From Verrucomicrobiota bacterium (lineage in GTDB: Bacteria; Verrucomicrobiota; Verrucomicrobiia; Chthoniobacterales; SZAS-18), in NCBI GenBank assembly GCA_019241085.1, contig JAFAXH010000100.1:1-64000 (forward strand): 64,000 nt of DNA, given 5' to 3'. Of this stretch, positions 25,286 to 43,431 are shown in pieces. Position 1 is the stretch's first letter. Each line of letters starts with the position of its first letter. The notes beneath the pieces are model-generated. The model saw nothing but the letters and a program-made list of their open reading frames with translations. It did no database searches and had not been told where the DNA came from. Made by a program: the position numbers and the translations under genes.

Positions 25286-26062
25286 ATGAAAGCAACCTTT
25301 GCCGCCCTCCTGCTCCTGCTGTGCAGCATTCTGGCGAGCCGGGCGCAACAGCCGCCGCCGCCGCAGGAGTCCACCGACGCGCTGGTGAAGGCGGGTGATG
25401 TCTTTGACCAGAAATGGGAACCTGCAGAGGCGCTCAAGTTTTACCTGCCCGCCGAAAAGCAGGAGCCTAGGAATGTGCGGCTGCTCACGCGCATCGCCCG
25501 GCAATACCGGCACCTGATGCAGGATGCGTCGGGGAAAACGGAGAAGCTGCGGTTGGGGCGCATCTCGCTCGACTACGCGCAACGCGCCGCCGCCTCGGGG
25601 CCGAATGACGCGGAGGCGCAGCTTTCGCCCGCGATTTCGCTGGGCAAAATGCTGCCCTTGATGGGTTCCAAAGAACAGGTGGACGCCTCGCCGCGCATCC
25701 GGACCTCGGTGGACCAGGCGCTCAAGCTCGACCCGCGCAACGACCTCGCCTGGCACATCCTGGGACGCTGGAACCGCGTGCTGGCCGAGGTGAGCAGCGT
25801 GAAGCGCGCACTGGCCGGGATGGTTTATGGAAATCTGCCCCCAGGCTCGAACGAGGAGGCCGAGCGCGACCTGCTCAAGGCCATCGCGATCAACCCCAAC
25901 CGGCCGATGCACCACATCGAACTGGGGCGCATCTACGTGCAGATGGGGCGGAAGGACGAGGCCCGACGCGCCATTAACAAAGGGTTGGCAATGTCGAGCG
26001 TGGACAAAGACGACGAAGAAATGAAAAGTTTCGGACGCGAGACGCTGGCAAAGTTGCACTGA
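25286..26062 (+). CDS. Exported TPR-repeat protein
   Basis: 258 residues. The signal peptide (KATFAALLLLLCSILASRAQ) is followed by a Pro-rich linker and TPR helices: ALVKAGDVFDQKWEPAEALK, then RTSVDQALKLDPRNDLAWHI and AERDLLKAIAINPNRPMHHI. The spacing of repeats resembles the RMD1/FAM82-like TPR family seen in bacteria. It is likely a periplasmic scaffold; its partner is unknown. The ATG at 25286 was chosen over a 15-codon extension. It converges on the asparagine synthase-like gene with 22 bp between stops. Confidence 0.8.
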   Translation: MKATFAALLLLLCSILASRAQQPPPPQESTDALVKAGDVFDQKWEPAEALKFYLPAEKQEPRNVRLLTRIARQYRHLMQDASGKTEKLRLGRISLDYAQRAAASGPNDAEAQLSPAISLGKMLPLMGSKEQVDASPRIRTSVDQALKLDPRNDLAWHILGRWNRVLAEVSSVKRALAGMVYGNLPPGSNEEAERDLLKAIAINPNRPMHHIELGRIYVQMGRKDEARRAINKGLAMSSVDKDDEEMKSFGRETLAKLH

Positions 26063-26084: not shown

Positions 26085-28091
26085 TCAACTCGGTATTGGA
26101 GCAGAAACTGCGGCCGCAGTTGCAGGCGACCACGTGGGAAGGTCGGCCAGTCCGCCGCCCATGTAAGTGTGGTGCCAGAGCTGCGTCGCCACGACCGCGG
26201 CGAGACCGAATTCGACGGACAGCCGCGGCAGCGAATTCGGGCGCATCTGCCGGAATTCGGTGCGCCAGCGCCGCACCTCGGTCGCATCGAAATAGCCCGT
26301 GCGCCGCAGCGATTCGTCGCTGAGAAGTTGTCCGACGAAGGGCGGCTCCGGGTCCAGGTGGAACGAGTCGAGCGGCGCGCGGAAAATCACCTTGTGCCGG
26401 CGCGCGATGCTGAGCGGCACCCAGCGTTCGGCCAGGAGCCGCAGGAGCCGTTTGTCGCGGAAGCCGTGCAGCTTCCAGCGCGGGTCGAGCTTGGCGGTGA
26501 AGTTGAAAACTTCCTCGTCGAGAAATGGATAACGCACCTCGACCGACGAGTGCATCGCCACGCGGTCGCCTTTCGCTTGGAGCAGATGCCCGGCGAGGAG
26601 GACGCGGCCCGCGATCCAGACGCCGCGGTTGATCGGGTGCCAGCGTTTGGCGCGCTCGACCGGAAAGCCGAGATCGCCCCAAGGATGCTCGCGCTCCATC
26701 ACTTCGCGCATGCCTTGGCCATAGAAACGCAGCTTGGAAAGCGCGAGCAGGCCGAAGGCGTCCACCCAGGCGTTCGGCCCGCCGATGGATTCTTCCACCC
26801 GCCGCCGCCAGTCGGTGGAAAAATGCGGAATGTTCTTAAACCGCAGAAACGCACGGCGAGCGCGATCGCTGAGGTGCAAGCCCGGGATCACGTCGAGCGC
26901 ACCCACGATCTTCGCCGCCTTATACCACGGATAACCGACGAGCCATTCGTCCGCGCCTTCGCCGGTGAGCACGACTTTTTGGCCGTTCATGTGCACCTTG
27001 CGCGCGAGCTGCAGGAGCGCGGCGCAGGAGGTATCGACGACCGGCGCCTCGGCCGCCTGGATTAGCTCGGGGTAAGTCGTCAGCGTGTCTTCGTGGCGGA
27101 AATCCTGCACGATGGGCGGCTTGGTGCCGACGTGCCGCGCGGTCAGGCTGGCGGCGTCGAGCTCGTCGAGGTCCGGCGCGTCAACCCGGACCGTGTAGGT
27201 ATTGATCGCCGGTCCCTTGAGCTTGCAGGAAAGGGCGACGATCATGCTCGAGTCCACGCCGCCGGAAAGGTAGGCGCCGACCGGCACATCGGCGCGCAGG
27301 CGCTCTTCGACGGCCTGCATCAGCACGCGCTCGAAGTCGTCCACCAGCTTTTGCTCGTTTTCACCGCGCTCCTCGTCGCCGGCGTCCGGGAAATCCATCT
27401 GCCAATACGCCCGCTCGGCGATGACTTCCGCCTTCACGCCGCCCGCTTCCGTGCCCGGCGTAATAGCCAAAAAATGTGCCGGCGGCAGGCATTGCACGCC
27501 CTCGAAACAGGTCACGGGTCCCGGCAGCGCGGAAAAGGTGAAGACGTGATCCAGTCCGCGCCGGTCCGGCCGCGCCGGGACCAGGCCGGAGGCGAGCAGA
27601 CCTTTGATCTCCGAGGCGAACAGCAGCCAATCGCCCTGGCGGCTCCAATACAGCGGCGCGATGCCGAAGCGATCGCGCCCGAGCTGGAGCACGCGCCGGC
27701 GCGCGTCCCAGAGCGCGATGGCGAACTGTCCGCGCAGCCGGTCCCACATGCCTTCCTGATATTCTTCCCACAGGTGGGGAATGATTTCGGTGTCGCAATG
27801 TTTCACCAGCCGATGCCCGCGCGCCTCCAGCTCCGCGCGCCGTTCCAGGTGGTCGAACAACTCGCCGTTGAAGACCGCGAACACGGTGCGGTCCTCGTTG
27901 AATACCGGCTGTTGCCCGTCGGCCAGGCCCACGATGGCGAGCCGCCGCGAGCCGAGCGCCAGCCCGGGGCGTTGGAAGTAGCCTTCCTCGTCCGGGCCGC
28001 GGTGGGTGAGGGCGCGCGTCATCCCTTCGACGACGCCGTCGGGAACGGGCCGCTGCCCGGCGAGATCAATGATGCCTGCGATGCCGCACAT
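26085..28091 (-). CDS. Asparagine synthase (glutamine-hydrolysing) family protein
   Basis: 668 residues. An N-terminal class II glutaminase domain starts with the catalytic Cys2 (MCGIAGIIDLAG, then THRGPDEEGYF). The C-terminal ATP-pyrophosphatase domain has GAYLSGGVDSSMIVALS and LTGEGADEWLVGYPWYK. The family makes asparagine from aspartate, but members beside biosynthetic clusters often amidate other carboxylates. It is divergent from the PKS gene with a 248-bp shared upstream region, so co-regulation is plausible. The function could be ordinary asparagine supply or tailoring of the cluster product. Confidence 0.9.
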   Translation of the reverse strand: MCGIAGIIDLAGQRPVPDGVVEGMTRALTHRGPDEEGYFQRPGLALGSRRLAIVGLADGQQPVFNEDRTVFAVFNGELFDHLERRAELEARGHRLVKHCDTEIIPHLWEEYQEGMWDRLRGQFAIALWDARRRVLQLGRDRFGIAPLYWSRQGDWLLFASEIKGLLASGLVPARPDRRGLDHVFTFSALPGPVTCFEGVQCLPPAHFLAITPGTEAGGVKAEVIAERAYWQMDFPDAGDEERGENEQKLVDDFERVLMQAVEERLRADVPVGAYLSGGVDSSMIVALSCKLKGPAINTYTVRVDAPDLDELDAASLTARHVGTKPPIVQDFRHEDTLTTYPELIQAAEAPVVDTSCAALLQLARKVHMNGQKVVLTGEGADEWLVGYPWYKAAKIVGALDVIPGLHLSDRARRAFLRFKNIPHFSTDWRRRVEESIGGPNAWVDAFGLLALSKLRFYGQGMREVMEREHPWGDLGFPVERAKRWHPINRGVWIAGRVLLAGHLLQAKGDRVAMHSSVEVRYPFLDEEVFNFTAKLDPRWKLHGFRDKRLLRLLAERWVPLSIARRHKVIFRAPLDSFHLDPEPPFVGQLLSDESLRRTGYFDATEVRRWRTEFRQMRPNSLPRLSVEFGLAAVVATQLWHHTYMGGGLADLPTWSPATAAAVSAPIPS

Positions 28092-28339: not shown

Positions 28340-31300
28340 ATGCCTAAAGACCGCATCGCCATCGTCGGAATCGGCTGCCGCTTTCCCGGGGGAGTCCATG
28401 ACGCGGAAGCCTTTTGGAAACTGCTCGTCGAAGGTCGCGAAGCCGTGAACGAGGTGCCGGGGGACCGTTGGAACGTCGAGCGTTACTTCGACCCGGAGCC
28501 TGGGATCGTGGGCAAGACGTTTGCCAAGCGCGGCGGATTCCTGGAGCAGATTGACCAGTTTGACCCGCAGTTCTTCGGCATCTCGCCGCGGGAAGCTCCC
28601 TACGTGGACCCCCAGCATCGGCTGCTGTTGGAAACGGCCTGGGAGGCGATCGAAGACGCCGGGATGGTGCTCGATTTTGAAAAAGGGACCGACCTCGGCG
28701 TCTTCGTGGGCATCTCCCACAACGACTACCAGGGCATCCAGAGCACGGCTCACGATCTCCAAGGGGTCAGCCCGCACTCGCCCACCGGCTCCGCGCATTC
28801 CATCGCGGCGAACCGCATCTCCTATTGCCTGAACCTGCGTGGCCCGAGCGTGGCGATGGACACCGCCTGCTCCTCCGCGCTGACGGCCGTTCACGCCGCG
28901 TGCGAGCACATCCGGGCCGGGCGCGGCGACATGGCGCTGGCCGGCGGCGTCACGATCATGATCACGCCGGGCGGCTTCATCGGCTTTTCCCAGGCCGGAA
29001 TGCTCTCGCCGGAGGGACGCTGCGCGGCGTTTGACGCCTCGGCGAGCGGCTTCGTGCGCGGTGAAGGCGTTGGCATGGTGCTGCTGAAACGGCTCTCGCG
29101 GGCCATCGCAGACGGTGATCCGATCCAGGGCGTGATCGTCGGCACGTCCATCAACCAGGACGGCCATACCAATGGCATCATGCTCCCCAGCCCGGAGGCG
29201 CAGGCGCGGCTCGTGCGGGAAGCGTGCGCGGACGCCGGCATCGCGCCCTCCGCGGTGGGTTTCGTGGAGGCCCACGGCACGGGCACCGCGGTCGGCGACC
29301 CCATTGAAGCCCACGCGCTCGCCGAGGCGCTCTGTGATGACGAACGCACGGAGCCGTTGCCCATCGGCTCGTGCAAAACCAATCTCGGGCACCTGGAAAC
29401 CGCCGCCGGCGTGGCCGGCTTGGTCAAGGCCGCGCTGGTGCTCAAACACCGCCAGATTCCGCCGAGCCTTCACTTCACGACGCCCAGCCCGCACATTGAC
29501 TTCGAGAAATTGAAGCTGCGCGTCCCGACGGAGCTTGAGCCCTTCCCGGAGACCGCCTCCGGCGGGGAGCGCATGGCCGGGGTGAACTCCTTCGGCTTCG
29601 GCGGCGCGAACGCTCACGTCGTCCTCGCCGAGCCGCCCCATTCGCACGCCAATCACCACGGTCGCGAATACCCCGAGCGCCCGTGGCCGGTCGTTTTCTC
29701 CGCGCGCTCCGAGGAAGCGTTGCGCAACGGGGCGGGGAAGCTTGCCGCGTGGCTCGCCGAGCGCGAGCACCTCAACGGTTCCTCGCCGTTGTTGCCCGAC
29801 CTCACCTACACGCTGGGAGCGCGCCGGAACCACCACGCGCACCGGCTCACGCTCGTCGCCCACACGATGGCGGACGTGGTCGCAGAACTCGAAAAAGTTG
29901 CGCTCAAGCAAGACCCCGCGCAGACCCGCCTTGCCTTCACACCGCGCCCGGAGCACGCCCCGCGCATTGCTTTCGTGATGAGCGGACAGGGTCCGCAATG
30001 GTGGGGCATGGGCCGCGAACTCATGGCGCACGAGCCGGTTTTTCGCCGCGTCATCGAACGCTGCGACGCCGCCATGCGCGGCCACGTGCGCTTCTCGTTG
30101 TTGGAGGAACTGACCCGCTCGGAGGACGCCTCGCAGATGCACCGCACGGAGGTCGCGCAGCCCGCGATTTTCGCGATGCAGGTCGCCCTTGCCGAGCTTT
30201 GGAAATCGTGGGGCGTCACGCCTGCCGCCGTGGTCGGCCATTCGGTCGGGGAGATCGCCGCGGCGTGTGTCGCGGGGGTGTTTTCCCTGGAGGAAGGCGC
30301 GCGGATCATCGCCCTCCGGGCGCGGTTCATGGAGAATTGCGCCCGCGGCGAAGGGGCCATGCTCGCGGTCGGCCTCGACGAGGAGGAAGCCCGTGCGCTC
30401 ATCGCCCGGCACGACCGCACGGTAACGGTCGCCGCGTTCAACGGCCCCCGGTCGCTCACGCTGGCGGGCCCACGAGTTTCTCTGGAGGCGATGCTCGCCG
30501 AACTGGAACCGCAGGGCGTTTTCGCCCGGCTCGTGAAGGTGGACCACCCGTTCCACCATCCGCTGATGGGACCGGCGGCCGACCAGCTCGAAACCGTGCT
30601 TGCCGACCTCGCGCCACAGCCGGGGAACGTGCCGTTTTTCTCCACCGTCACCGGCGCGCGGCAGCCCGGCGAGGCGTGCGACGCGGCGCACTGGGGCCGC
30701 GGCATCCGCCAGCCGGTCCAGTTCGCCCCGGCGGTCGGCGCGCTCGCGGAATTCGGCGTGGACATCTGGCTGGAAATCGGCGCGCACCCCGCGCTGGTCC
30801 ATTCCATCCAGGAAAGTCTCGGCGGACGCGGGAGTGGCGCGAAGGCACCCGTCTTCGCTTCCGTCCGACGCGAACGGGAATTGGAATCCGCGCTGGAAAC
30901 CGCGCTGGACCTGCATCGCGCCGGGGTCATGCTCGACTTTGCGGCGATGACGCCCTCGCGGCAGCTTCTCCCCCTGCCGGCTTACGCTTGGGAGCGTGCC
31001 CGCTGGTGGCACGAGTCGCGGGACTGGCGCGAAAGTCGTCTCGCCCCCGGTGGCCGGGGTCTGCTGGAGGCGCGCCTGCCACGGGCAACACCGACGTGGG
31101 TTACCTGCCTGGACGCCCGGCACATGGCGTTCCTCAAGGATCACAAGGTGGACAGCCACGTCATCTTCCCCGCCGCGGCGTTCGTGGAAATGGCGCTGGA
31201 GGCCGGCGCGCAGCTTTTCGAGGGCCGCCCCTTCGCGGTTGAGGACTTCGAAATCCGCAAACCCCTGCTCCTGCCCGACCCGGCGTCCAGCGTTCAACTG

Positions 31301-34300
31301 GAACTTTCCTATTCCCCGACCGAACGCACCTTCGTCATCCAGAGCCGGATGGAAAACAGTTCGGCGTGGTCGCTCCACGTCGTCGGCTCGCTGCGGGGCG
31401 AGCGCACGGATTCCGCCTTCGCCGCGTCGCGCTGGGAGGGTGGCCACCCGGCCGGCACGCAGACGGTGGAAGTTGAGGGCTTCTACCAGCACATGAGCGA
31501 CCTGGGGCTGCGCTACGGCGAAGAGTTCAAGTCCGTGCGTGAACTTGCTGCTGGCGCCGGCCGTTCCGCCGGGCGCGTCGCGTTGTCCGAAGCGGTGGCC
31601 CCTCGCGCGGGAGAGTATGCCTTGCATCCGGTGCTGCTCGACGGCGCGCTCCACGTTTTTTCCGCCGGGGCGGCAACGGTGGAGGACCGTCACGCGCGGA
31701 TGAAGCTGCCGGTGCGGTTCGCACGTATTTTGTTCCTGCGCCCGCCCGGCGCCGCTGCCCAGGTCCGCGCCGACGTGCGCGATTTCAACGACGATTTCCT
31801 GGAAGGCGATCTTGCCCTTTACGATGAAGCCGGTGCCCCGTGCGTGCTGGTTGACGGCTTCCGCGCGATCAGCGTCGCGGGCGTGCGCCGGGCTGGCGGC
31901 GCTTCGGGCGGCTTGGATGGTTTGACCTACCATGTCGCCTGGGAGCGGACTCCCACCGCCGATCTTCCCGCCGTGACCGCGCCCGTGCCTTTGGGGCAAC
32001 TACGAGCCAGTGCGCAGCACGCGCTCGACGAAGTGATCGCCACGCGTGGCCGCGACGTGCTGGAAAGCGCGATGGCCGCGGACGACGACTTGGCCGCGGC
32101 GCACATCGCGCAAGGGCTGCGCGAGATGGGCGTGACGCCCGGTTCGGTGTTCACAGCCGATTCGCTGGGGATCGCGGAGCCAATGCGCCTCGTGTTCGAG
32201 CGGATGCTCGCGAAACTCACGAAGCGTCGCTGGTTTACCCAGACCAAAAAAGGTTTCCGACCGACGGTGGCTTTCACCAAAGCCGCGGATTCTGCACCGA
32301 AAGCGCTACGCACCAACCTTGCCGAATTTCCCGGCCACTTCCCCGAAGCTCTGCTCTGCGCCGGCAACGCCGCGGAACTCGGTCCGATTTTGCGCGGGGA
32401 AAAAGACGCCGTGCAGGTGCTCTTCACCGGCGCCGGGGCGGAGATGCTGGAACATTTCTATTCCGACGGCCTGATCACCAGCCACTGGCTCGCCGCCATC
32501 GCTGCCGCCGTGACTGAGGCTGCGCGCGCTCTGCCCGAGGGCCGCGGCCTGCGCATCCTGGAAATCGGCGCGGGCACCGGCGGACTCACCGCGCACCTGC
32601 TGCCGTTGCTCGAACGCGGACTGCACGCCTACACGTTCACCGACGTTTCCGCCGGGTTTTTCTCAGCCGCCGCGCAGAAGCTGGCCACGTTTCCGGAGGT
32701 CGAGTTCAAGGTGTTTGATCTTGAACGCCCGGGCACCGAGCAAGAGTTCCAAGCGGACTCTTACGATTTCATCATCGGCACCAATGTGCTCCACGCCGTC
32801 GCGGACGTGCGCGCCACCACGCGCCATTTGCACGCCCTGCTCGCGCCGGGCGGCAGCTTCATGTTCATCGACACCGCGACGCCGCAGCTTTGGACGGAAA
32901 CCGTCTTCGGCCTGACGCCAGGCTGGTGGCGGTTCACCGACCGCGACCTGCGCCCGGAGCAACCCTTGCTCGGACGTCCGCAGTGGGAAAGTGTGCTGCG
33001 CGACGTCGGCTTCGCCGAAACGGCCGCTCTGCCCGGCATCAACGGGCCCGAGGGTGAAGGCCAGTTCGCCGTGCTAGCGCGCAAACCCTGGCGCGATGCG
33101 GATTTCGCGTCTGAAGAGTCCGCCGCCGAGGCGCCGCCCGTGGAATCGTCCTGGCTGGTTTTCGCCGACGAGTCCGGCGTCGGTAACGCCCTCGCCGCGC
33201 GCTTGCGTCGGGCGGGCGCGCGGTGCCGTGTCGCGCGCCGCGGCGGCCGGTATGCCGCAGGGGAGAATGACACGTTCACTCTGCGCGCGGATGTTCCGGC
33301 GGACTGGCGCAAACTGCTCGCTGCGTGCGCGGAGACGCCGCCCGAACGGATCGCCTACCTTTGGCCGCTGGATGCGCCCGCTGATCCCGGGGCCGACTCT
33401 GCGATGGGCACTGATGCGCTCCTCCACTTGGCGCAGGCGCTAGGGCGCGAGCTGCCGACGGCGAAGCTGCGGTTCGATCTCATCACGCGTGGCGCGCAAC
33501 CGGTCGGTCGCGACGCCCTGCCGACCGCCGTCGCCCAGGCGCCGGCGCTTGGGATGTTCCGGGTCATACTCAACGAACATCCGAGCTTTACCTGCCGCGC
33601 CATCGACCTTTCGCCGAAGCCTTCTGCGGCGGATGAACGCACCCTCTGGCACGAACTCCTCCGCGAGGATGCCACTGAGCGCGAAGTCGCTTTCCGCGGC
33701 GAAGCTCGTTACGCCCAGCGGCTCGATCGCGGCATCGCCACGCGGGAGCAGTCGCTCGATCCGGCGGTGCCGTTGCGGCTGGAATCCCGCGACCGCGGGC
33801 ATCTCGACGCCGTGCGCTTTGCGCCGTTCACGGTGCCGGCGTGTGAGCCCGGGCAGGTGCTCATCGACGTGCAGGCGGCGGGCATGAATTTCCGCGACGT
33901 GCTCAAGGCGCTCGCACTTTATCCCGGTGAAGCGCCCGACGCCCGCATCTTCGGCGACGAGGTCGGCGGCATCGTTCGCGCCGTCGGTGAAGGTGTCACG
34001 CACGTCCAGCCCGGCGACCGCGTTTTCGGACTCGCGGTGTTTGGCCTCGCCACGCAAACGCTCGCCCGCGGTGGCGACGTGCGCCGCATTCCGGCCGGTC
34101 TTTCCTTCGAGGAAGCGGCAACGCTGCCGGTGGTGTTCATGACCGCTTGGCACGCGCTGCAAAACGTCGCGCGCGTGCGGCCGGGCGAGCGGGTGCTCAT
34201 CCATGCCGGTGCTGGTGGCGTCGGCATGGCCGCCGTGCAGATCGCCCAGCATTTTGGCGCGGAGGTGATCGCCAGCGCCGGCAGTCCGGCCAAGCGCGCC

Positions 34301-36046
34301 CTGCTGGAAACGCTCGGCGTGCGGCACGTCATCGACTCGCGGCGCGGCGATTTCGCGGAAGCGGTGCTGGAACTGACGAACCGGCGCGGCGTGGACGTGG
34401 TGCTCAACGCGCTCGCCGGCGAGGCGATCCCGATGGGGCTTTCGTGCCTCGCGGAATTCGGCCGCTTCATCGAGATTGGCAAGCGCGACATTTACCAAAA
34501 CTCGCGCATCCCGCTCTGGCCATTGCGGCGCAACGCTTCATTCCACGTCGTCGCGATGGACTCCGTCTTCCACGGCGACGAGGAGCTGACACGCGGCATG
34601 CTGGCGGAGATCGCCAAGCTGGTGGAAAAAGGCGCGCTGCGTCCGCTGCCGTTCCGCGCGTTCCCGGCGTGTCGGGTGGACGCGGCGTTCCGGTTGATGG
34701 CCAGCGGCAAGCACATCGGCAAGGTCGTCGTCGCGTTTCCTGAGTCATTCATGGCGCGCCGGGGTGAGCCGTTGGCGCCGGGGTTTGAGGTCAAACCGGA
34801 CGGCACCTACCTCATCACCGGGGCGCTTGGCGGTTTCGGCAAGGTGCTCGCGAGCTGGTTGGTGGAACGCGGTGCGCGTCACCTCGTGCTCACCAGTCGC
34901 AGCGGGGCTTCGACGCCGGAAGCCGAGGATTTTGTCCATCGCCTGCGCAAGCGCGACGTGGAAGTGCGCGTCGCCCGGGCGGACATCGGCTCGGCGAAAG
35001 ATGTCGCGACGCTCTTCGCGCAGATCCGCGCGGATGGCCGGCCGCTGCACGGCGTCTTCCATCTCGCGATGGTCCTCGACGACGCGCCGCTCGCCGATCT
35101 CACGCCGGAGCGGATGGAGCGCGTGCTCGCGCCGAAGGCCCGCGGCGCCTGGTTGCTGCACGAGGCCACGCGCGAGTTGGCAACACTCGACTGCTTTGTC
35201 ATGTTCTCGTCGGTTTCGAGCATCTTCGGCAACGCCGCGCAGGGAAATTACAGCGCGGCGAACGCGTTCCTCGATTCCCTTGCCCACCATCGGCAGGCGC
35301 TCGGGTTGCCGGCGCTCGCGATCAATTGGGGCGTGCTCGGCGACGAAGGCTACGTGGCCCGCAACGAGCGGGTCGGCGAATTCCTCGCCAAGCAGGGCAC
35401 GCTGGCGCTCTCGCCCGGCGAGGTCACCGCGTTGCTCGAAAAGTTCCTCCGGGCCGGCACCGCGCAGGCGATGGCGATCCGCGTGGACTGGGCGAAGTGG
35501 CGCGCGATTTTCCGCAGCATGGGCGAAAACCCGCTGCTGGAGCGCATCTTCGCCTCGGTCGAAAGCCAGGAAACCGGCGGCACCAAGACCAGCGATTGGC
35601 GCGCCCGCATCGAAGCCGCCGCCCCGGCGGCAAAGGAAGCGGTCATCGCGAACGCGGTGCGCGAAGTCGTCGGCTCCGTGCTGCGGGTAAAACCGGACAG
35701 CCTGCGTGACGATCAACCCTTGACCGACCTCGGACTGGATTCGCTGATGGGCGTCGAAATCGAATCGTCGCTGGAAGCCGCCGTCGGCGTGGCATTGCCC
35801 CCGACGAGCCTGATGCGGGCGCGAACCATCGGCCAAATCGCCACCCTGATCGCCAGTCACCTGGGCGGCGGTGCGCCGGTCGCCGGTGTCGCTGCCGCGG
35901 CCCCCGTGGCCGAAGCGGCTGCTCCGGTGTCGCCCTCGACCGGTGCGCTTGCCGGGGCGGTGGATCTGGAGGCGCTCTCCGACGCGGAACTCGATCGCCT
36001 GCTCGGCGACGTGCCGGCGACCGAAAGCAGCAGCGCGGCCCGGTGA
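28340..36046 (+). CDS. Highly reducing type I polyketide synthase, KS-AT-DH-MT-psiKR-ER-KR-ACP
   Basis: 2568 residues, one complete module. KS: C177 (DTACSSAL), H312 (EAHGTGT), H351 (KTNLGHLE). AT: S635 in GHSVGE and HPFH at 736-739, the malonyl-type signature. DH: H935 in KDHKVDSHVIFP and D1101 in LLDGALH; the usual Gly after the His is Ser. C-methyltransferase: LEIGAGTGG near 1408. Non-catalytic KR half about 1590-1800. ER about 1810-2120 with HAGAGGVGMAAVQIAQ. KR: TGALGGFG near 2159, S2291, Y2304 and an LDD motif of the B type. ACP: S2468 in LGLDSLMG. No thioesterase. An Ala-rich tail ends in DLEALSDAELDRLL, possibly a docking helix. This architecture is that of iterative fungal-type HR-PKSs and mycobacterial lipid synthases. 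Expected product: methyl-branched acyl chain. Confidence 0.95.
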   Translation: MPKDRIAIVGIGCRFPGGVHDAEAFWKLLVEGREAVNEVPGDRWNVERYFDPEPGIVGKTFAKRGGFLEQIDQFDPQFFGISPREAPYVDPQHRLLLETAWEAIEDAGMVLDFEKGTDLGVFVGISHNDYQGIQSTAHDLQGVSPHSPTGSAHSIAANRISYCLNLRGPSVAMDTACSSALTAVHAACEHIRAGRGDMALAGGVTIMITPGGFIGFSQAGMLSPEGRCAAFDASASGFVRGEGVGMVLLKRLSRAIADGDPIQGVIVGTSINQDGHTNGIMLPSPEAQARLVREACADAGIAPSAVGFVEAHGTGTAVGDPIEAHALAEALCDDERTEPLPIGSCKTNLGHLETAAGVAGLVKAALVLKHRQIPPSLHFTTPSPHIDFEKLKLRVPTELEPFPETASGGERMAGVNSFGFGGANAHVVLAEPPHSHANHHGREYPERPWPVVFSARSEEALRNGAGKLAAWLAEREHLNGSSPLLPDLTYTLGARRNHHAHRLTLVAHTMADVVAELEKVALKQDPAQTRLAFTPRPEHAPRIAFVMSGQGPQWWGMGRELMAHEPVFRRVIERCDAAMRGHVRFSLLEELTRSEDASQMHRTEVAQPAIFAMQVALAELWKSWGVTPAAVVGHSVGEIAAACVAGVFSLEEGARIIALRARFMENCARGEGAMLAVGLDEEEARALIARHDRTVTVAAFNGPRSLTLAGPRVSLEAMLAELEPQGVFARLVKVDHPFHHPLMGPAADQLETVLADLAPQPGNVPFFSTVTGARQPGEACDAAHWGRGIRQPVQFAPAVGALAEFGVDIWLEIGAHPALVHSIQESLGGRGSGAKAPVFASVRRERELESALETALDLHRAGVMLDFAAMTPSRQLLPLPAYAWERARWWHESRDWRESRLAPGGRGLLEARLPRATPTWVTCLDARHMAFLKDHKVDSHVIFPAAAFVEMALEAGAQLFEGRPFAVEDFEIRKPLLLPDPASSVQLELSYSPTERTFVIQSRMENSSAWSLHVVGSLRGERTDSAFAASRWEGGHPAGTQTVEVEGFYQHMSDLGLRYGEEFKSVRELAAGAGRSAGRVALSEAVAPRAGEYALHPVLLDGALHVFSAGAATVEDRHARMKLPVRFARILFLRPPGAAAQVRADVRDFNDDFLEGDLALYDEAGAPCVLVDGFRAISVAGVRRAGGASGGLDGLTYHVAWERTPTADLPAVTAPVPLGQLRASAQHALDEVIATRGRDVLESAMAADDDLAAAHIAQGLREMGVTPGSVFTADSLGIAEPMRLVFERMLAKLTKRRWFTQTKKGFRPTVAFTKAADSAPKALRTNLAEFPGHFPEALLCAGNAAELGPILRGEKDAVQVLFTGAGAEMLEHFYSDGLITSHWLAAIAAAVTEAARALPEGRGLRILEIGAGTGGLTAHLLPLLERGLHAYTFTDVSAGFFSAAAQKLATFPEVEFKVFDLERPGTEQEFQADSYDFIIGTNVLHAVADVRATTRHLHALLAPGGSFMFIDTATPQLWTETVFGLTPGWWRFTDRDLRPEQPLLGRPQWESVLRDVGFAETAALPGINGPEGEGQFAVLARKPWRDADFASEESAAEAPPVESSWLVFADESGVGNALAARLRRAGARCRVARRGGRYAAGENDTFTLRADVPADWRKLLAACAETPPERIAYLWPLDAPADPGADSAMGTDALLHLAQALGRELPTAKLRFDLITRGAQPVGRDALPTAVAQAPALGMFRVILNEHPSFTCRAIDLSPKPSAADERTLWHELLREDATEREVAFRGEARYAQRLDRGIATREQSLDPAVPLRLESRDRGHLDAVRFAPFTVPACEPGQVLIDVQAAGMNFRDVLKALALYPGEAPDARIFGDEVGGIVRAVGEGVTHVQPGDRVFGLAVFGLATQTLARGGDVRRIPAGLSFEEAATLPVVFMTAWHALQNVARVRPGERVLIHAGAGGVGMAAVQIAQHFGAEVIASAGSPAKRALLETLGVRHVIDSRRGDFAEAVLELTNRRGVDVVLNALAGEAIPMGLSCLAEFGRFIEIGKRDIYQNSRIPLWPLRRNASFHVVAMDSVFHGDEELTRGMLAEIAKLVEKGALRPLPFRAFPACRVDAAFRLMASGKHIGKVVVAFPESFMARRGEPLAPGFEVKPDGTYLITGALGGFGKVLASWLVERGARHLVLTSRSGASTPEAEDFVHRLRKRDVEVRVARADIGSAKDVATLFAQIRADGRPLHGVFHLAMVLDDAPLADLTPERMERVLAPKARGAWLLHEATRELATLDCFVMFSSVSSIFGNAAQGNYSAANAFLDSLAHHRQALGLPALAINWGVLGDEGYVARNERVGEFLAKQGTLALSPGEVTALLEKFLRAGTAQAMAIRVDWAKWRAIFRSMGENPLLERIFASVESQETGGTKTSDWRARIEAAAPAAKEAVIANAVREVVGSVLRVKPDSLRDDQPLTDLGLDSLMGVEIESSLEAAVGVALPPTSLMRARTIGQIATLIASHLGGGAPVAGVAAAAPVAEAAAPVSPSTGALAGAVDLEALSDAELDRLLGDVPATESSSAAR

Positions 36047-36066
36047 GCGCGGGCTGACGACACGGC

Positions 36067-37398
36067 ATGTCCAGCGAAAAGCGTGCGCGGTTAAAGCAGT
36101 GGCTGGAAAGCGGCGAGGCGCGGTTGGAGCCGCTCGCCTTTCCGCAGCGCGAGCTTTCGGAAGCGACCCCGGTCCTGTTGGGAGATTCGGCGAACCACAT
36201 TTGCAGTCTGATCACGCTCCACGGACGCCTCACGTCCCAGGATTGCGAGAACATCATGCTGCGCGTGGTCGAGCGGCAGGAGGCCCTGCGCACCTCGCTC
36301 CTGCCCGGCCGGGACGGAGCGTTGCAGATGATCCGCCGGAGTGTCAGCGAGCCGAATCTCCGCTTCAGCGATTTGCCTGCGACGGAAGAACTCGAAGCGC
36401 GGGCGCAGGAGGTATTTCGTGAACCGTTCGACCTCGTGGGAGGTCCGCTTTATCGCGCGGAAATCATGCGGCGCGGACCGAAGGATCTCGTGTTCGCCTT
36501 CTCCATCCACCACGCCGTCGCCGATGGCTGGTCGCTCGGCATTCTGGTGCGGGAACTCGCCCACGCCTACGCGCAAAAGCTCCTCGGCCGCTGGGCCAAA
36601 TCGCTCCCGCCGGTGGCGCTGACTTACTCGGCGTGGGGCGCGACGGAACGCGCCGCCTGGCAGCCGGTGGAATTGGAGCGTTGCGCCGCGTTTTGGAAAA
36701 CGACGCTCGCCGGCGCCAGCCGACTGTTCCCGGCGCAGCCCGACTCGCCGCCGGGCTTGGATCGCTGGGTCACCGAACTGCCGGAGAAACTCCCGGGTGC
36801 GGTGCGCGCGCTCGCCAAGCGCACTGGCGCCACGCTTTTCTCCACGTTGCTCACGGCTTTTCAAATCGCCCTCTGGCGCTGGCGCGGCGCGGAGGACATC
36901 GTCGTCGGCACGCCGGTGGCAAATCGCCAAAATCCCGCGGCGCGGGAAACGATCGGTTACTTCGCCGGCGTCGTGCCTTTGCGCGGGCAAGTGGAACGCG
37001 ACCGCACGTTCGCGGAAAGCCTGCGCGCCGCGCACGAGACGAGCATGGACGCCTTTGCCCACGCGATGCCTTTTGCGGAGTTGATGCGCGCCGTCGGCGA
37101 TGCGCCCGCGCCCGGGCATCACCCGGTGTTCGACGTGCGCTTTGCCTTGCAAAATCACCCGGTCCCGGACATCACGCTGCCCATGCTCTCGGCGCGGTTG
37201 CGAATGCGCTCCACCGGCACGGCGCGGTTTCACTTGGGCTGCGAGATCACCGAGCGCGGCTCGGCGATGGAAGTCGTCTGGCTGTCGCGGCCGTCGCTAT
37301 TTTCTCGCGATGACATCGCGGACCTCGCGCGTATCTTCCATGCGGTGCTGGCGGGCGCCTGTCGCTCGGCGGAGAGCCGCATTCTGAGTATCGTTTAA
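36067..37398 (+). CDS. Stand-alone condensation-domain acyltransferase
   Basis: 443 residues, a single NRPS-condensation/PapA-type fold. H148-H149-AVA-D153-G154 is the HHxxxDG catalytic motif. The N-terminal PLAFPQREL and the later LFSTLLTAFQIALWRW and FAGVVPLRGQ segments follow the fold through its second half. No adenylation or carrier domain is attached. Such free-standing enzymes transfer an acyl chain from a carrier protein to an alcohol or amine. Starting 20 bp after the PKS, which lacks a thioesterase, it is the best candidate for product release and esterification or amidation. Confidence 0.9.
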   Translation: MSSEKRARLKQWLESGEARLEPLAFPQRELSEATPVLLGDSANHICSLITLHGRLTSQDCENIMLRVVERQEALRTSLLPGRDGALQMIRRSVSEPNLRFSDLPATEELEARAQEVFREPFDLVGGPLYRAEIMRRGPKDLVFAFSIHHAVADGWSLGILVRELAHAYAQKLLGRWAKSLPPVALTYSAWGATERAAWQPVELERCAAFWKTTLAGASRLFPAQPDSPPGLDRWVTELPEKLPGAVRALAKRTGATLFSTLLTAFQIALWRWRGAEDIVVGTPVANRQNPAARETIGYFAGVVPLRGQVERDRTFAESLRAAHETSMDAFAHAMPFAELMRAVGDAPAPGHHPVFDVRFALQNHPVPDITLPMLSARLRMRSTGTARFHLGCEITERGSAMEVVWLSRPSLFSRDDIADLARIFHAVLAGACRSAESRILSIV

Positions 37399-37416
37399 AA
37401 CCGTTTTCTGAATTCC

Positions 37417-38406
37417 ATGCAGACGATCACCCTGGCTGAAATGCCGGAGCCGGCTTACGACGACGACGCTGACCAACCGCATTGGATCAGCCGGCTGGCG
37501 TTTCCGATTCTCTCGCTCGTGCTCCTGGCGGTCGAGGCGCTGCTTTGGCTGGCGTTGCGAGGCGGTCATTACTGGCTGGCCGTGCCGTTCGTCCTGGTCG
37601 CGGGTCACATCATGCACGGCCAACTGATTGGGTTCCACGAAGCGTCGCACGGTTTGCTGCGAAAGAGGCGCTGGATAAACGAACTGGACGGCGTGCTCCT
37701 AGGTCTTTTTTCTTTCACCAGCTTCAGCCTGTATCGGGCCGCTCACCAGACGCACCACATGCATCTGAGCACGGAGCGGGACGAGGAGTTCTGGCCGTTC
37801 GTGCAACCCAAGGCTCCCCGGTGGTTGCGCGTGCTGGCGGCCTGTCTGGAACTGACGCTCGGCCTTTTCTTCACGCCCTGCATTTTCCTGCGGACCTTCC
37901 TGCGCGCCGGCTCGCCGATTCGCAGTCGCAAGGTGCGCCGCCGGATCTGGCTGGAACTGGCGCTGATGGTCGTGATGTGGTGCGCTCTCGCGACGGCGGT
38001 GGCCTGGCTTGGGATCTGGAAATATTTCCTGTGGATGCTCGTGGTGCCGGAGATCATCGCGGGCAACCTGCAAAGCTGGCGCCGCTACATTGAACATGTC
38101 GGCATGACTGGCTCGACGCCGAACAGCGCCACGCGCAGCATCATCCCGCGCGGCCCGCTCGGGCATCTCTTCGCGTTCACTCTGCTCCACGAACCCTATC
38201 ACGGCGTGCATCATCAACGCGCCGGCCTGCCGCACGCGGAGATACCGCGGTTCGCTGCCTCGCTCCTGCCGCAATCGCCCGAGGAACGGCCGCCTTTCCC
38301 CAGTTACCGTGCGGCGTTGCTGGACCTCCTGCGCTGCCTCCCGGACCCGCGCGTCGGCCCGCAATGGAACAGCATCGCTTCGTCCTCGTCCTCGTCCAAG
38401 GGGTAA
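37417..38406 (+). CDS. Membrane fatty-acid desaturase-family protein
   Basis: 329 residues, with about four transmembrane helices (30-48, 52-70, 90-105, 180-210). The three histidine boxes of the di-iron family are HEASH (74-78), HQTHH (110-114) and HEPYHGVHHQ (258-267). These enzymes desaturate or hydroxylate acyl chains or carotenoid-like substrates in the membrane. The Ser-rich C-terminus is probably disordered. It lies 18 bp after the acyltransferase gene and likely modifies the PKS product or its conjugate. Hydroxylase versus desaturase cannot be told from the sequence alone. Confidence 0.88.
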   Translation: MQTITLAEMPEPAYDDDADQPHWISRLAFPILSLVLLAVEALLWLALRGGHYWLAVPFVLVAGHIMHGQLIGFHEASHGLLRKRRWINELDGVLLGLFSFTSFSLYRAAHQTHHMHLSTERDEEFWPFVQPKAPRWLRVLAACLELTLGLFFTPCIFLRTFLRAGSPIRSRKVRRRIWLELALMVVMWCALATAVAWLGIWKYFLWMLVVPEIIAGNLQSWRRYIEHVGMTGSTPNSATRSIIPRGPLGHLFAFTLLHEPYHGVHHQRAGLPHAEIPRFAASLLPQSPEERPPFPSYRAALLDLLRCLPDPRVGPQWNSIASSSSSSKG

Positions 38407-38433
38407 AAACTCTGGTCGCCTTTCGCCTCGCTC

Positions 38434-39171
38434 ATGTCGCCCGCCGCTCCTGATCGCTCCCACGACAAGAAAGCGCCGGTGTTCGAGGCGCGTGGGTTGA
38501 AAAAAGAATACGACGACGGCCAGGTGCAGGCGTTGCGCGGCGTGGATTTCCAAATTTTCGGCGGCGAGTTTGTCGCCATCACGGGACCGAGCGGCTGCGG
38601 GAAAACGACGCTGCTCCAACTGCTCGGCGCGCTCGATCAGCCGAGCGCCGGAACGCTCACCTACCGCGGCACCTCGCTTGCGGTGATGCCCGACCTGGCG
38701 GCGTATCGGGCGCGCGAGATCGGGTTCATTTTCCAAGCTTTCCACCTGCTCCCGACCTTCACCGCGGAAGAAAACGTGCAGATGCCGATGTTTGAAACCG
38801 GGCGACCGATTTCGGAACGCCGGGAGCGAGCCGCGACGCTGCTGAAATCCGTCGGCCTGGAGCATCGGCTCCGCCACTTTCCCTCCAAACTCTCCGGCGG
38901 CGAGCGGCAGCGCGTGGCCATCGCGCGCTCGCTGGCGAACGGCCCCGGCGTCCTGCTGGCCGACGAACCGACCGGCAATCTCGACAGCGAAAACGCGCAC
39001 GCCATTCTCGACTTGCTCTCGCGGCTGCACGAGGAGCAAGCGATGACCCTGGTGCTCGTGACGCACGACATGACCGTCGCTCGGCGGGCCTCGCGCGCGA
39101 TCCAAATGCACGACGGCCGCGTCGTTTTCGATGGCGATCCCGCGCAACTTCCCACGATTTCCGCGATATGA
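38434..39171 (+). CDS. MacB/LolD-type ABC transporter ATP-binding protein
   Basis: 245 residues. Walker A GPSGCGKTT, signature LSGGERQRVAIARSLA, Walker B VLLADEPTGNLDSE and the H-loop VTHD are intact. The QALRGVDFQIFGGEFVAITG start is characteristic of the MacB/LolD/FtsE group that drives FtsX-type permeases mechanically. Its stop overlaps the permease start by ATGA, so the pair is translationally coupled. The location within the PKS operon points to moving the lipid product or a carrier across the periplasm. Confidence 0.93.
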   Translation: MSPAAPDRSHDKKAPVFEARGLKKEYDDGQVQALRGVDFQIFGGEFVAITGPSGCGKTTLLQLLGALDQPSAGTLTYRGTSLAVMPDLAAYRAREIGFIFQAFHLLPTFTAEENVQMPMFETGRPISERRERAATLLKSVGLEHRLRHFPSKLSGGERQRVAIARSLANGPGVLLADEPTGNLDSENAHAILDLLSRLHEEQAMTLVLVTHDMTVARRASRAIQMHDGRVVFDGDPAQLPTISAI

Positions 39172-40283
39172 CTTTTTTCATCGTTGTTCTGCGAGGACTG
39201 CTCCGCCGCCCGGTCCGCACCGGGCTGACGCTCGTCGGTATTTCCATCGGCATCGGCGCGGTGGTGGCGCTCGTCGGCATGTCGCGCGGCTTTGAATCCA
39301 GTTGGACCGCCGGCATGAAGTCGCGCGGCACCGACATCGTCGTCAACAGCATGGGTTCGTCGTTGACCCCCAAGCCGTTTCCCGCCTCCGTGCGCGACCG
39401 CATCACGCAGCTCCCCGGCATCGCCGCGACGAGCACACTCCTGGTGGAACTCATGGGCATCGAGAACAGCGAGATGATGATCGTCTCGGCGCGGGAGTGG
39501 GGGGGATTTGCCTGGGATAATCTCAAAGTGATCTCCGGACGGCTCCCGCACGACGCGGCGGAACGGGCCGTGGTGCTCGGCACAACCGCAGCCGAGATGC
39601 TTCACAAAAAGGTGGGTGATCCGCTCCAGATCGAGACGGAGGAGCTTTCCGTCGTCGGCATCGTGGACGGCGGCGCCGTGGTGGAAAACGGCGCCGTCAT
39701 CCTTTCTCTCTCGCTGTTGCAGGAGATCATGGGCACTGCGGGCAAGATCAACATCATCGACGTGCGGGTGAAGCCCGGCACCGACGAAACCGCCATGCGG
39801 CGGCTCTGCGACGAGATCACGCAGCGCATCCCCGAGGCGCGCGCCGAAGCGGCCGGCGAGCACATTCGCTCTTCGCAGGGTTACCGCATCATCAACGCCA
39901 TGAGCTGGGGCACGTCGCTGCTCGCGGTGCTGGTGGGCGTGCTCGGCGTGATGAACACGATGCTGATGACGGTTTTTGAGCGGAAGCAGGAGATTTCCAT
40001 TTTGCTCGCCATCGGCTGGCGACGCTCGCGCATCGTGCGCCTGATTTTGTGGGAATCCGCGCTGCTCGGTTTCTTCGGCGGCGTGGTTGGCGTCATCCTT
40101 GGCGTCGTTGGGATGCAAGTGCTGGAGCGGACGCCAGCCATCCGCGGTCTTCTGCAGCCTGACCTGAGTCCCAGCCTCATGGCGCTGGCCGTCGCCATCG
40201 CCGTGGTCGTCGGGATTCTCAGCGGACTTTATCCCGCGTGGCGCTCCTCCCGGCTCCATCCCGGTGCGGCGTTGCAGGGCTGA
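39168..40283 (+). CDS. FtsX/MacB-type ABC transporter permease
   Basis: 371 residues. A first helix (about 15-40, RTGLTLVGISIGIGAVVALVG) is followed by a MacB-type periplasmic domain and a C-terminal FtsX domain with three helices, including NAMSWGTSLLAVLVGVLGVM and QEISILLAIGWRRSRI, the coupling helix that touches the ATPase. LolC/E and MacB use this plan to extract lipoproteins or export substrates. It overlaps the ATPase gene by 4 bp. A LolA-like carrier gene is 45 bp downstream, so the set mimics LolCD-LolA. Confidence 0.92.
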   Translation: MTFFIVVLRGLLRRPVRTGLTLVGISIGIGAVVALVGMSRGFESSWTAGMKSRGTDIVVNSMGSSLTPKPFPASVRDRITQLPGIAATSTLLVELMGIENSEMMIVSAREWGGFAWDNLKVISGRLPHDAAERAVVLGTTAAEMLHKKVGDPLQIETEELSVVGIVDGGAVVENGAVILSLSLLQEIMGTAGKINIIDVRVKPGTDETAMRRLCDEITQRIPEARAEAAGEHIRSSQGYRIINAMSWGTSLLAVLVGVLGVMNTMLMTVFERKQEISILLAIGWRRSRIVRLILWESALLGFFGGVVGVILGVVGMQVLERTPAIRGLLQPDLSPSLMALAVAIAVVVGILSGLYPAWRSSRLHPGAALQG

Positions 40284-40328
40284 AGTTTTCGGCACCGCCG
40301 GAGGCCGTGGGCACGGCGAATTCATCCT

Positions 40329-41141
40329 ATGCGATTGTTTTTTCTTCGCTTCCACCAAGTTATCGTCGCCTGCCTGGGATTTTGTCTGCTGGCTTCGGCC
40401 GCGTGCGCGGAATCCGAACCTGCGGCAACCGTGTCTGCGACCGACCTCGCCGCGCGCCTCAGCGCGAAGCAGCAGGATGGCAGCGCTTATGTGCGCATGC
40501 GTCTGCAAACACGCGGCGGCGCTTTTCAAGTTCAGGGCAAATCCCGCTCCACGCGCGGGAGCACCGAGGTGATTTACCAGGTGCTCTGGCCGAAGGAGCG
40601 CAAAGGGGAATCGGTGCTCCTGCGACGTTCCGGGAACGGCGCGGCCAGCGGCGCTTACTTCAATCCGCCCAATACCACCCGTTCCCTCGATGCCGGGCAG
40701 TTGCGTGAGCCATTCTTCGGCAGCGACCTCGCTTACGAAGACCTGATCGAAAACTTCTTTGCGTGGGATCAGCAAAGCTTGGTTGGCACCGAGACCGTGG
40801 ATAACGTCCCGTGCCAGATACTTGAATCGAAACCCGGCAAGGGTGGAAGCTCCATCTACACCAGTGTCCGCTCCTGGGTGGACACGCGCCGGATGGTCCC
40901 GCTGCGGGTAGAGAAATACGCTGGCTCCGGCAAGCTCGTCCGCCGGATTGACACCACCCGCGTCGTTACCGATGACAAAGGCCGCGCCATCCCAGCAAAT
41001 CTCACGGTGCGCGGTCCCGACGGAGATTCTGTCACTGAACTCAACGGCGGGAAGATCACGCACGCGATTAGCTTCACCGACGCGGAATTTACCGCGGAGG
41101 GAATCAAGCAAACGGTCATCCCTCGCGGCTCGCCCGAGTAG
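40329..41141 (+). CDS. Periplasmic LolA-like lipid/lipoprotein carrier
   Basis: 270 residues. A signal peptide (VIVACLGFCLLASAACAESE) is followed by a LolA-like half-barrel: an amphipathic beta stretch (YVRMRLQTRGGAFQVQGKS), then YQVLWPKERKGESVLLRRSG, which matches the outer-membrane lipoprotein-sorting-like family. CQILESKPGK and ISFTDAEF lie near the end. Such proteins hold an acyl chain in a greasy cavity while crossing the periplasm. Together with the ABC pair it completes a Lol-type route beside the PKS. Confidence 0.82.
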   Translation: MRLFFLRFHQVIVACLGFCLLASAACAESEPAATVSATDLAARLSAKQQDGSAYVRMRLQTRGGAFQVQGKSRSTRGSTEVIYQVLWPKERKGESVLLRRSGNGAASGAYFNPPNTTRSLDAGQLREPFFGSDLAYEDLIENFFAWDQQSLVGTETVDNVPCQILESKPGKGGSSIYTSVRSWVDTRRMVPLRVEKYAGSGKLVRRIDTTRVVTDDKGRAIPANLTVRGPDGDSVTELNGGKITHAISFTDAEFTAEGIKQTVIPRGSPE

Positions 41142-41202
41142 CAGGTGATCTCTGCTTCAAAGCACTTGCGAGTGTGCGCGTCGAAGTAGCCGCTGCGATA
41201 GC

Positions 41203-42540
41203 ATGAGACTGCACTCTCCCAGAGAATCGTATCTTTGGCTCAAAGCTCTTTGGGACCATCGCCGCACCCAACGTCTCTCGCGCACCCAGCTTGAAGCGGA
41301 ACAACGCGCCAAGTTTCGCCGCCTGGTCTCCTTCATTTACCAGCACTCGCCCTACTATCGCGCTCTCATCAAGACGCACGGGCTTGATCCCCTCACCTGC
41401 CTGCCCACCGATTTTCCCATCCTCACCAAGAGTGATGTGATCGAGCATTTCAACGAGATCATTACGGATCGCACCATCACCCGCCGCGACATTGCCGAGT
41501 TTCTTTCTCGCTCACGCGATCCCGAGGAGCTATTCCGCGGCCGTTACCATGTGCTCCATACCTCCGGCACCTCCGGCACGGTGGGTTACTACCTCTTCTC
41601 TCACAAAGCATGGATCAAAGGCGCCAGCAATCCGATTCGCGTTTCCTCGTTGCGCCTGCGCCGCAAGGTCGCTTACATCGCCGCCACTCGTGGTCATTTC
41701 GCAGGCGTCAGCCTTGTCCTCGCCGGCAATGACGGCACCAATCGCTTGTTTCACAACGTCCGCACCTTCGACGTAGGCCAGCCACTCTCGCAGATTATCC
41801 GGGAGTTAAACCAATTTCAGCCCGAAGCCATTTCAGGTTACGCCACCATCCTGCGACAGTTAGCCGAAGCTCAGGAACGCGGCGAGCTTCGCATTTCTCC
41901 CACTCACATCGGCAACGGCGGCGAAGCTTTGCTCCCCGAGGTAAAAGCCTACCTGGAGCGTGTCTTTCGCGTCCCGGCCCTCAACAGCTATGCTTCCAGC
42001 GAGCATCTGGTCATGGGCCTCAATCTACCGGGCACCGATGGTCTCCATTTGTTGGAAGACGACTTGATCTTTGAACTACGCCCGGACTGCACCTGCATCA
42101 CCAATCTCTTCAATGAGGTCCTCCCACTCATTCGCTATCGGATGGACGACGTCCTCATCCCCGATACCTCCAACCACAGTCCATACCCTTACACCAAGGT
42201 TCAAGAAGTGATCGGCCGCCGTGAGCACTCCCTCGCCTTTACCAATGAGCATGGACAGGAGGATTTCATCCACCCCATCGTAATCGTGGAGTTGATCATC
42301 CCCGGACTAAAGGCCTGGCAAGTTGTTCTAGAAAGCAAAACACGTTTCCGGTTCCGCGCCTGCTTCAACTCTAACCTAACTAAGCAAGAACATCAGGAAA
42401 CACAAAAACACCTCTGCGCCAAGCTAGACGCCATCCTCGCCGAGAAAGAAATGCGCAACGTTGCCTTCACGCTGGAGCCGGTGGACTCCCTGCCCATCGA
42501 CGCAGCGACCGGCAAGTTTCGCCTCGTCCTGCGCGCATAG
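41203..42540 (+). CDS. PaaK/CapK-like adenylate-forming ligase
   Basis: 445 residues. The phosphate loop HTSGTSGTVGYY (about 118-129), SSEHLVMGL and YRMDDVLIPDT are ANL-superfamily marks; the overall pattern follows the phenylacetate-CoA ligase / CapK group rather than long-chain acyl-CoA synthetases. It would activate a carboxylic acid with ATP, as a CoA thioester or by direct transfer. It ends the cluster, 61 bp after the LolA-like gene, and could load a starter acid onto the PKS or activate the acceptor. Base composition is slightly AT-richer than the PKS. Confidence 0.85.
   Translation: MRLHSPRESYLWLKALWDHRRTQRLSRTQLEAEQRAKFRRLVSFIYQHSPYYRALIKTHGLDPLTCLPTDFPILTKSDVIEHFNEIITDRTITRRDIAEFLSRSRDPEELFRGRYHVLHTSGTSGTVGYYLFSHKAWIKGASNPIRVSSLRLRRKVAYIAATRGHFAGVSLVLAGNDGTNRLFHNVRTFDVGQPLSQIIRELNQFQPEAISGYATILRQLAEAQERGELRISPTHIGNGGEALLPEVKAYLERVFRVPALNSYASSEHLVMGLNLPGTDGLHLLEDDLIFELRPDCTCITNLFNEVLPLIRYRMDDVLIPDTSNHSPYPYTKVQEVIGRREHSLAFTNEHGQEDFIHPIVIVELIIPGLKAWQVVLESKTRFRFRACFNSNLTKQEHQETQKHLCAKLDAILAEKEMRNVAFTLEPVDSLPIDAATGKFRLVLRA

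Positions 42541-43358: not shown

Positions 43359-43431
<73 letters not shown>

Follow-up and report, generated by a model that had tools for sequence, protein, structure and literature searches.

Positions 28340 to 42540 of the window (here, the whole 64,000-nucleotide stretch of Verrucomicrobiota DNA that was analyzed) carry a large polyketide synthase (PKS) gene followed by genes for a free acyltransferase, a desaturase, a Lol-like exporter, and an adenylating ligase. The question raised by this locus is whether these genes belong to one conserved system and, if so, what that system might make and export. An ORF check found seven intact genes, all on the same strand and spaced, from the PKS to the ligase in turn, by 20, 18, 27, −4, 45, and 61 bp (Table 1), in agreement with a preliminary description of seven one-strand genes with gaps of 18 to 61 bp and one 4-bp overlap. 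The domains listed there for the seven genes agree with our Pfam and NCBIfam results, as does its claim that the PKS lacks a thioesterase (TE), for which these searches gave no match. The PKS frame opens at a TTG at 28238, and homology begins at the ATG at 28340, which is also the start given in the preliminary description. A promoter and terminator scan returned signals no better than those of shuffled sequences.

Table 1. Genes of the cluster and its recurrent neighbors, with positions in the window.
Feature	Position	Strand	Features and supporting matches
HR-PKS	28340..36046	+	2568 aa, KS-AT-DH-CMeT-ER-KR-ACP, without TE; AT motif HPFH (malonyl type); Pfam/NCBIfam
Free condensation-domain acyltransferase (HHxxADGW), proposed release enzyme	36067..37398	+	PF00668, 200.6 bits
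Membrane fatty-acid desaturase/hydroxylase-type di-iron enzyme, three His boxes	37417..38406	+	PF00487 (FA_desaturase)
LolD/MacB-type ABC ATPase	38434..39171	+	ABC_tran; TIGR02211 242 bits, under the 307.75 cutoff
MacB_PCD-FtsX permease	39168..40283	+	PF12704 and PF02687
LolA-like periplasmic carrier	40329..41141	+	PF17131 (LolA_like) 84.6 bits; N-terminal hydrophobic signal stretch
PaaK/F390-synthetase-like adenylating ligase, accessory	41203..42540	+	TIGR02304 86 bits, under the 251.9 cutoff; without a Pfam match
AsnB-type asparagine synthetase, divergent recurrent neighbor	26085..28091	-	TIGR01536, above cutoff
TPR protein, recurrent neighbor	25241..26062	+	Pfam
Amidase-family protein, recurrent neighbor	23809..25200	+	PF01425

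Six of these genes, those for the PKS, acyltransferase, desaturase, ATPase, permease, and LolA-like carrier, make up a conserved cluster. Of 31 loci with sufficient flanking sequence, 24 have the complete set of six in one order on one strand, and in all 31 the PKS lies upstream of the acyltransferase. Acyltransferase orthologs were found in 28 of 213 genomes of the Chthoniobacterales, the order to which the window belongs, and 38 of 210 Verrucomicrobiales genomes carry the cluster, counts that depend on assembly completeness, most loci coming from MAGs. Within the Chthoniobacterales, a clear break separates the true orthologs of the acyltransferase, the most distant of which are 46% identical, from the following matches, mostly in NRPS-sized frames, at about 32% and less; in the fetched surroundings of these orthologs the six genes keep their order nearly everywhere, and the PKS orthologs are 63% to 79% identical. 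When named genomes were scanned, about 60 loci were obtained from the Verrucomicrobiota, among them those of the cultured Verrucomicrobium sp. BvORR034 and BvORR106 and of Chthoniobacter flavus Ellin428 (a draft, with broken PKS frames), and in other phyla identity falls to 26% to 36%. A sample of 388 genomes across the Verrucomicrobiota added four more true orthologs, all inside the class and above 670 bits, with the next match at 267 bits and no orthologs outside the class. The expectation that these genes would co-occur in other genomes is thus borne out, and the cluster is apparently undescribed, as had been suggested: no description was found in the open-access papers searched.

The locus also occurs in variant forms. 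The LolA-like gene precedes the ATPase gene in L072 and L114, with all six genes still together; L088 is without the desaturase; three loci of one clade (L060, L079, and L111) keep the PKS, acyltransferase, and desaturase without an intact adjacent exporter; and L095 retains the PKS and acyltransferase alone. The linked ATPase and permease of one genome (G143) are frameshifted, with a second intact set elsewhere in that genome, and exporters without a PKS occur as second copies. In a PKS tree whose reading is limited by midpoint rooting and by MAG labels, Chthoniobacterales and Verrucomicrobiales loci are intermixed. Together with the scattered occurrence of the cluster, this suggests that it has been exchanged horizontally within the class.

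The permease and acyltransferase also track each other across genomes. With the permease counted at ≥55% identity, the 213 Chthoniobacterales genomes comprise 23 with both genes, 4 with the permease only, 5 with the acyltransferase only, and 181 with neither (Fisher p = 4e-22, a value that overstates certainty because related genomes are not independent). The four permease-only genomes were rejected as counterevidence since the contigs end within or close to their exporter genes; the contig of L167, for example, reads amidase, TPR, AsnB, LolA, FtsX, ABC, and desaturase before it ends. Given this co-occurrence and a six-gene order repeated in 24 of the 31 loci, the grouping of these genes is far beyond chance.

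The Pfam and NCBIfam domains of the PKS (KS, AT, DH, methyltransferase, ER, KR, and ACP) make up a single module, and the catalytic motifs of all seven are present and kept, with few departures, in 47 full-length orthologs, most of which share the malonyl-type HPFH motif of the AT domain. With seven domains and intact active sites, it is a highly reducing type I PKS with a C-methyltransferase (CMeT). Its closest solved chain is the mycocerosic acid synthase Mas (9d2z), and the nearest lipid-PKS equivalog model is mycobacterial Pks2, which it matches at 1272.8 bits against a cutoff of 2400. Mas draws its methyl branches from methylmalonyl-CoA. The sub-cutoff Pks2 score, the extra CMeT, and the malonyl-type AT motif place the cluster PKS outside the Mas/Pks2-type lipid PKSs. 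It is the sole giant ketosynthase protein found in the genome (3.4 Mb, 170 contigs, 87% complete), the other four KS matches lying in reading frames of 423 to 611 aa. Because the CMeT, KR, DH, and ER share one module, domain chemistry would predict a reduced, alpha-methyl-branched chain made iteratively.

How such a chain would leave the PKS is suggested by the neighboring acyltransferase, a single Condensation domain for which PF00668 was the sole Pfam family reported. Its HHxxADGW motif is invariant in two alignments (A1 and A3) and common among 71 orthologs. The nearest solved folds to its predicted model (pLDDT 82) are NRPS C domains, with TM-scores of 0.77 to 0.81 to most of the top ones, and its solved-structure matches are NRPS or PKS-NRPS C domains or C enzymes throughout. 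The HHxxxDG active site and C-domain fold make it a condensation-domain superfamily acyltransferase, a superfamily whose members can form amides as well as esters. Membership in the PapA family was rejected on the strength of the PF00668-only match, with no PapA C-terminal domain reported, the NRPS-type nearest folds, and the lack of PapA among the solved matches; the earlier comparison with mycobacterial Mas-PapA therefore stands as a likeness of working and not as one of membership, the enzyme being an NRPS condensation-domain homolog.

The related locus L175 (genome G030) bears on both release and export. It encodes a 2839-aa PKS (42% identity) with the domain order KS-AT-DH-MT-ER-KR-ACP-TE, directly followed by ATPase (58%), permease (42%), and LolA-like (30%) genes, and it has neither a free acyltransferase nor a desaturase. 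Because the free acyltransferase is missing where the PKS can release its own product, whereas the exporter is retained, the locus supports release of the product by the acyltransferase in the cluster, strengthening a proposal already made in the preliminary description, and likewise supports the view that PKS and exporter are coupled. L175 is the single case of the TE variant, with no further TE-PKS copy among 40 genomes of the family.

Conserved residues extend to the remaining core genes. The desaturase His boxes HEA[ST]HG, HQxHH, and HEP[YF]HGxHH occur in most of 55 orthologs, and Walker A and B motifs, signature, and H-loop are present in 52 ATPase orthologs. MacB, LolC/E, and LolF are the nearest solved proteins to the permease, MacB being nearest of all, and the product of this single permease gene presumably acts as a homodimer. 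The carrier has solved LolA-like relatives, and its orthologs have signal-like N-termini. It is plausible that the three proteins lift a substrate from the inner membrane to the periplasm; MacB/LolD-FtsX transporters also export peptides and drugs. A canonical LolCDE-A set was rejected, the NCBIfam scores being 242 against 307.75 bits for LolD and 61 against 362.45 bits for LolCE. The carrier matches PF17131 only, and a PF03548 LolA protein is encoded elsewhere in the same genome (G000:C110), so the normal Lol set of the genome is not what these genes encode, an identity that had been considered when the cluster was proposed.

The ligase stands outside the conserved block, so that the seven-gene cluster originally proposed contracts to a six-gene core conserved in order. 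No other Chthoniobacterales cluster locus has it, nor does any of the remaining 212 genomes of that order, and its GC content is 54% to 58% against 63% to 70% for most of the cluster, both of which indicate that it is probably a recent acquisition. Rejected as a core gene, it came back as an accessory one through its phylogenetic profile. All 14 Verrucomicrobiales genomes with a ligase homolog carry the cluster, against 38 of 210 overall (Fisher p = 4e-12), and by genus the association is 9/9 versus 13/44 (p = 1e-6), relatedness again inflating certainty. The Verrucomicrobiales ligase is mostly unlinked, surrounded in such genomes by chaperones and unrelated genes with no common partner, and adjoins the PKS in L078/L186, L119/L185, and L190. 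Its adenylation motifs and catalytic C-terminal Lys are conserved. The ligase is best regarded as a partner that the cluster can have or lack. It may activate a starter unit, by analogy with FadD21, the adenylating ligase for the starter in the acyltrehalose/sulfolipid system of M. tuberculosis (PMC4183827).

Other genomes contain further partners that the preliminary description did not mention, and neither a second methyltransferase nor a lipoprotein hydrolase gene was found within the window. The accessory methyltransferase (approximately 370 aa, with at most a weak Pfam methyltransferase match) adjoins the cluster in many loci and is absent from the rest of the window's genome. Its model (pLDDT 77) has a SAM methyltransferase fold, with PKS C-methyltransferase domains among the top matches at low TM-scores of 0.42 to 0.46. 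It occurs in 7 Chthoniobacterales genomes, all acyltransferase-positive, and in 17 acyltransferase-positive and 1 acyltransferase-negative Verrucomicrobiales genomes; its profile is nearly nested, and that of the ligase nested, within the cluster carriers. An alpha/beta-hydrolase of approximately 550 to 600 aa with an N-terminal lipoprotein-like signal is found in about a dozen loci, some copies having a plain GxSxG motif and some lacking it, and in L084, L105, and L113 a 31% relative is inserted between the desaturase and ATPase genes. Four loci encode a chalcone-isomerase-like protein (PF16036). The AsnB, TPR, and amidase neighbors were also not mentioned previously: in 26 named loci, drawn from the two orders, AsnB sits at the corresponding place, and the TPR gene adjoins the cluster in many loci, with TPR and amidase genes on either side elsewhere and on the left in the window.

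Taken as a whole, the six core genes probably make and export a polyketide-derived acyl lipid. In the scheme that follows, we infer the iteration, chain structure, acceptor, order of steps, direction of export, and destination. The single-module PKS would iterate from malonyl-CoA, with full reduction and SAM-dependent methylation along the way, so that a saturated chain with methyl branches builds up on the ACP. The condensation-type acyltransferase would free this chain by passing it to an acceptor with a hydroxyl or amine group, and the membrane desaturase would introduce either a double bond or a hydroxyl. From the inner membrane, the ATPase and permease could then extract the lipid and pass it to the LolA-like carrier, which would ferry it through the periplasm, putatively to the outer membrane. 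In some genomes the adenylating ligase may supply a different starter unit, a second methyltransferase may modify the product, and the lipoprotein alpha/beta-hydrolase may relocate the acyl chain on the periplasmic side. This reading draws on the conserved order, the permease-acyltransferase co-occurrence, the complete PKS active sites with a CMeT, the proximity to Mas and, below cutoff, to Pks2, the L175 sister locus, the lipid-type accessory families (LolA-like, chalcone-isomerase-like, and lipoprotein hydrolase), and the nested or nearly nested ligase and methyltransferase profiles. Against it stand the ability of MacB/LolD-FtsX types to move peptides and drugs and of C domains to make amides, the three loci without an intact adjacent exporter, the frameshifted linked exporter of G143, and the single occurrence of the TE variant.

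Pumps for export or self-protection are common in PKS clusters, and with MacB as the nearest solved protein to the permease, the cluster might instead make a small secreted polyketide (a signal, antibiotic, or pigment), with the MacB-like pair as an ordinary efflux pump assisted by the LolA-like protein. We regard this as unlikely, since the recurrent cluster genes include no MacA-type adaptor or TolC-like channel and have a LolA-like carrier instead, a desaturase and lipid-handling accessory families are present, and conservation across the class, at 63% to 79% PKS identity, is unlike that of most antibiotic clusters. It is less probable still that the PKS chain is joined to proteins or to an amine by N-acylation and that the ABC/LolA set sorts lipoproteins modified in this way. 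That all three exporter proteins are Lol relatives, that AsnB and amidase are recurrent neighbors, and that a lipoprotein hydrolase is often present would fit such a role; however, the permease is one homodimer-type subunit far under the LolCE cutoff (61 versus 362 bits), the carrier belongs to PF17131 and not to PF03548 LolA, which the genome has elsewhere, and the core has no lipoprotein substrate gene.

The least probable explanation, to which we give very little credence, is that a PKS lipid, an unrelated exporter, and a ligase are three separate functions sharing a neighborhood by chance. The clade that keeps the PKS, acyltransferase, and desaturase without an exporter, and the second exporter copies without a PKS, are what it would predict, but the gene order is kept across two orders in a tree that mixes both, the permease and acyltransferase co-occur in Chthoniobacterales, and the order variants L072 and L114 still hold six genes together.

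If the lipid-export reading is correct, the Verrucomicrobiota, which are abundant in soils and freshwater, would have a line of their own for delivering a polyketide lipid to the outer membrane. Mas/PapA-like logic would then have been rebuilt from different protein families, and a LolD/FtsX/LolA-type set would prove able to serve biosynthesis as its private lipid exporter, which bears on the route by which unusual lipids arrive at the outer membrane of Gram-negative bacteria. Since cultured carriers exist, the cluster is open to experiment. The exporter resembles LolCDE-LolA in its ATPase, permease, and carrier classes and in the presumed extraction-and-shuttle mechanism, and differs in falling below the LolD and LolCE NCBIfam cutoffs, in its PF17131 carrier, and in being tied to a PKS. 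The heterocyst glycolipid route uses several Hgl proteins and a DevBCA set with an adaptor. Unlike that system, the cluster unites in one operon a lone PKS, a release enzyme of the condensation type, and a LolA-like carrier. The two are alike in that a lipid made by a type I PKS would be served by an ABC exporter of the DevA/LolD/MacB family directed toward the envelope (HglE PKS and DevBCA exporter; PMC8064123). Aryl polyene clusters likewise send a polyketide-type acyl chain to the outer membrane by an in-cluster dedicated Lol-like system (ApeL, LolA-like; ApeM, RND; ApeN, LolB-like; PMC8253772), but they use type II FAS-like enzymes and an RND pump and have no ABC transporter, type I PKS, CMeT, or C-domain acyltransferase; with no type II KS/ACP set or RND exporter, the present cluster is not one of them.

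Another close parallel is the mycobacterial acyltrehalose/sulfolipid system FadD21-Pks3/4-PapA3-MmpL10-Chp2 (PMC4183827); like it, the cluster would combine a one-module lipid PKS, a free condensation-superfamily acyltransferase, an adenylating starter ligase, and a dedicated exporter. The place of the mycobacterial extracytoplasmic acyl-moving enzyme could be filled by the lipoprotein hydrolase. A more ambitious reading, which we consider less likely than not, is that the cluster arose by convergence as the Gram-negative equivalent of the mycobacterial machinery for polymethyl-branched surface lipids, in which a ligase, a Mas-like PKS, condensation-type release, ABC/LolA in place of MmpL, and the lipoprotein hydrolase as periplasmic transacylase would yield a Verrucomicrobia-specific outer-membrane lipid. 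The cluster belongs to none of the mycobacterial, heterocyst glycolipid, and aryl polyene systems. By their predicted roles its parts match those of the mycobacterial system function by function, with almost every part from another family: a CMeT domain and malonyl-type AT motif versus methylmalonyl-CoA for the methyl groups, an NRPS-C-type acyltransferase versus PapA, a PaaK-like ligase versus FadD, and an ABC/FtsX/LolA exporter versus MmpL, in a host that is a diderm Gram-negative.

The exporter genes also occur apart from the PKS. In genome G143, the second exporter locus (contig C13; see table) lacks a PKS, and the ATPase and permease linked to the cluster on contig C53 are both frameshifted; the intact exporter of C13 may act in trans. 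In one clade (loci L060, L079, and L111), the PKS, acyltransferase, and desaturase are kept and the exporter is reduced to fragments or gone. The PKS of the Chthoniobacter flavus Ellin428 draft (L125/L053) is split over three frame pieces and its acyltransferase is interrupted, reflecting either decay or draft errors. This genome also carries an orphan permease copy (G019:C52) and the accessory methyltransferase (G019:C33).

Features of the window and of other loci
Feature	Location	Strand
Amidase, TPR, desaturase remnant, intact ATPase, permease, methyltransferase, LolA	L166:5818-12747 (G143:C13)	
Classical LolA (PF03548)	G000:C110:19867-20403 (L164)	
Eco57I-type restriction-modification methylase, 1140 aa	window 14835-18257	(-)
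PKS with fused thioesterase, then directly ATPase, permease, LolA-like genes	L175:370-11482 (G030:C125)	

Between the ligase and RecF, window positions 42541-43538 (approximately 1 kb, low GC) hold no convincing gene, consistent with an insertion scar. No accessory-gene remnants were found there. Elsewhere in the same genome, the classical LolA adjoins an RND/MMPL-type exporter candidate and an inositol-phosphatase-like frame, both judged by eye, and this is perhaps another lipid-export locus. At L175, neither acyltransferase nor desaturase lies beside the thioesterase-fused PKS, and this locus is possibly a thioesterase-released sister system.
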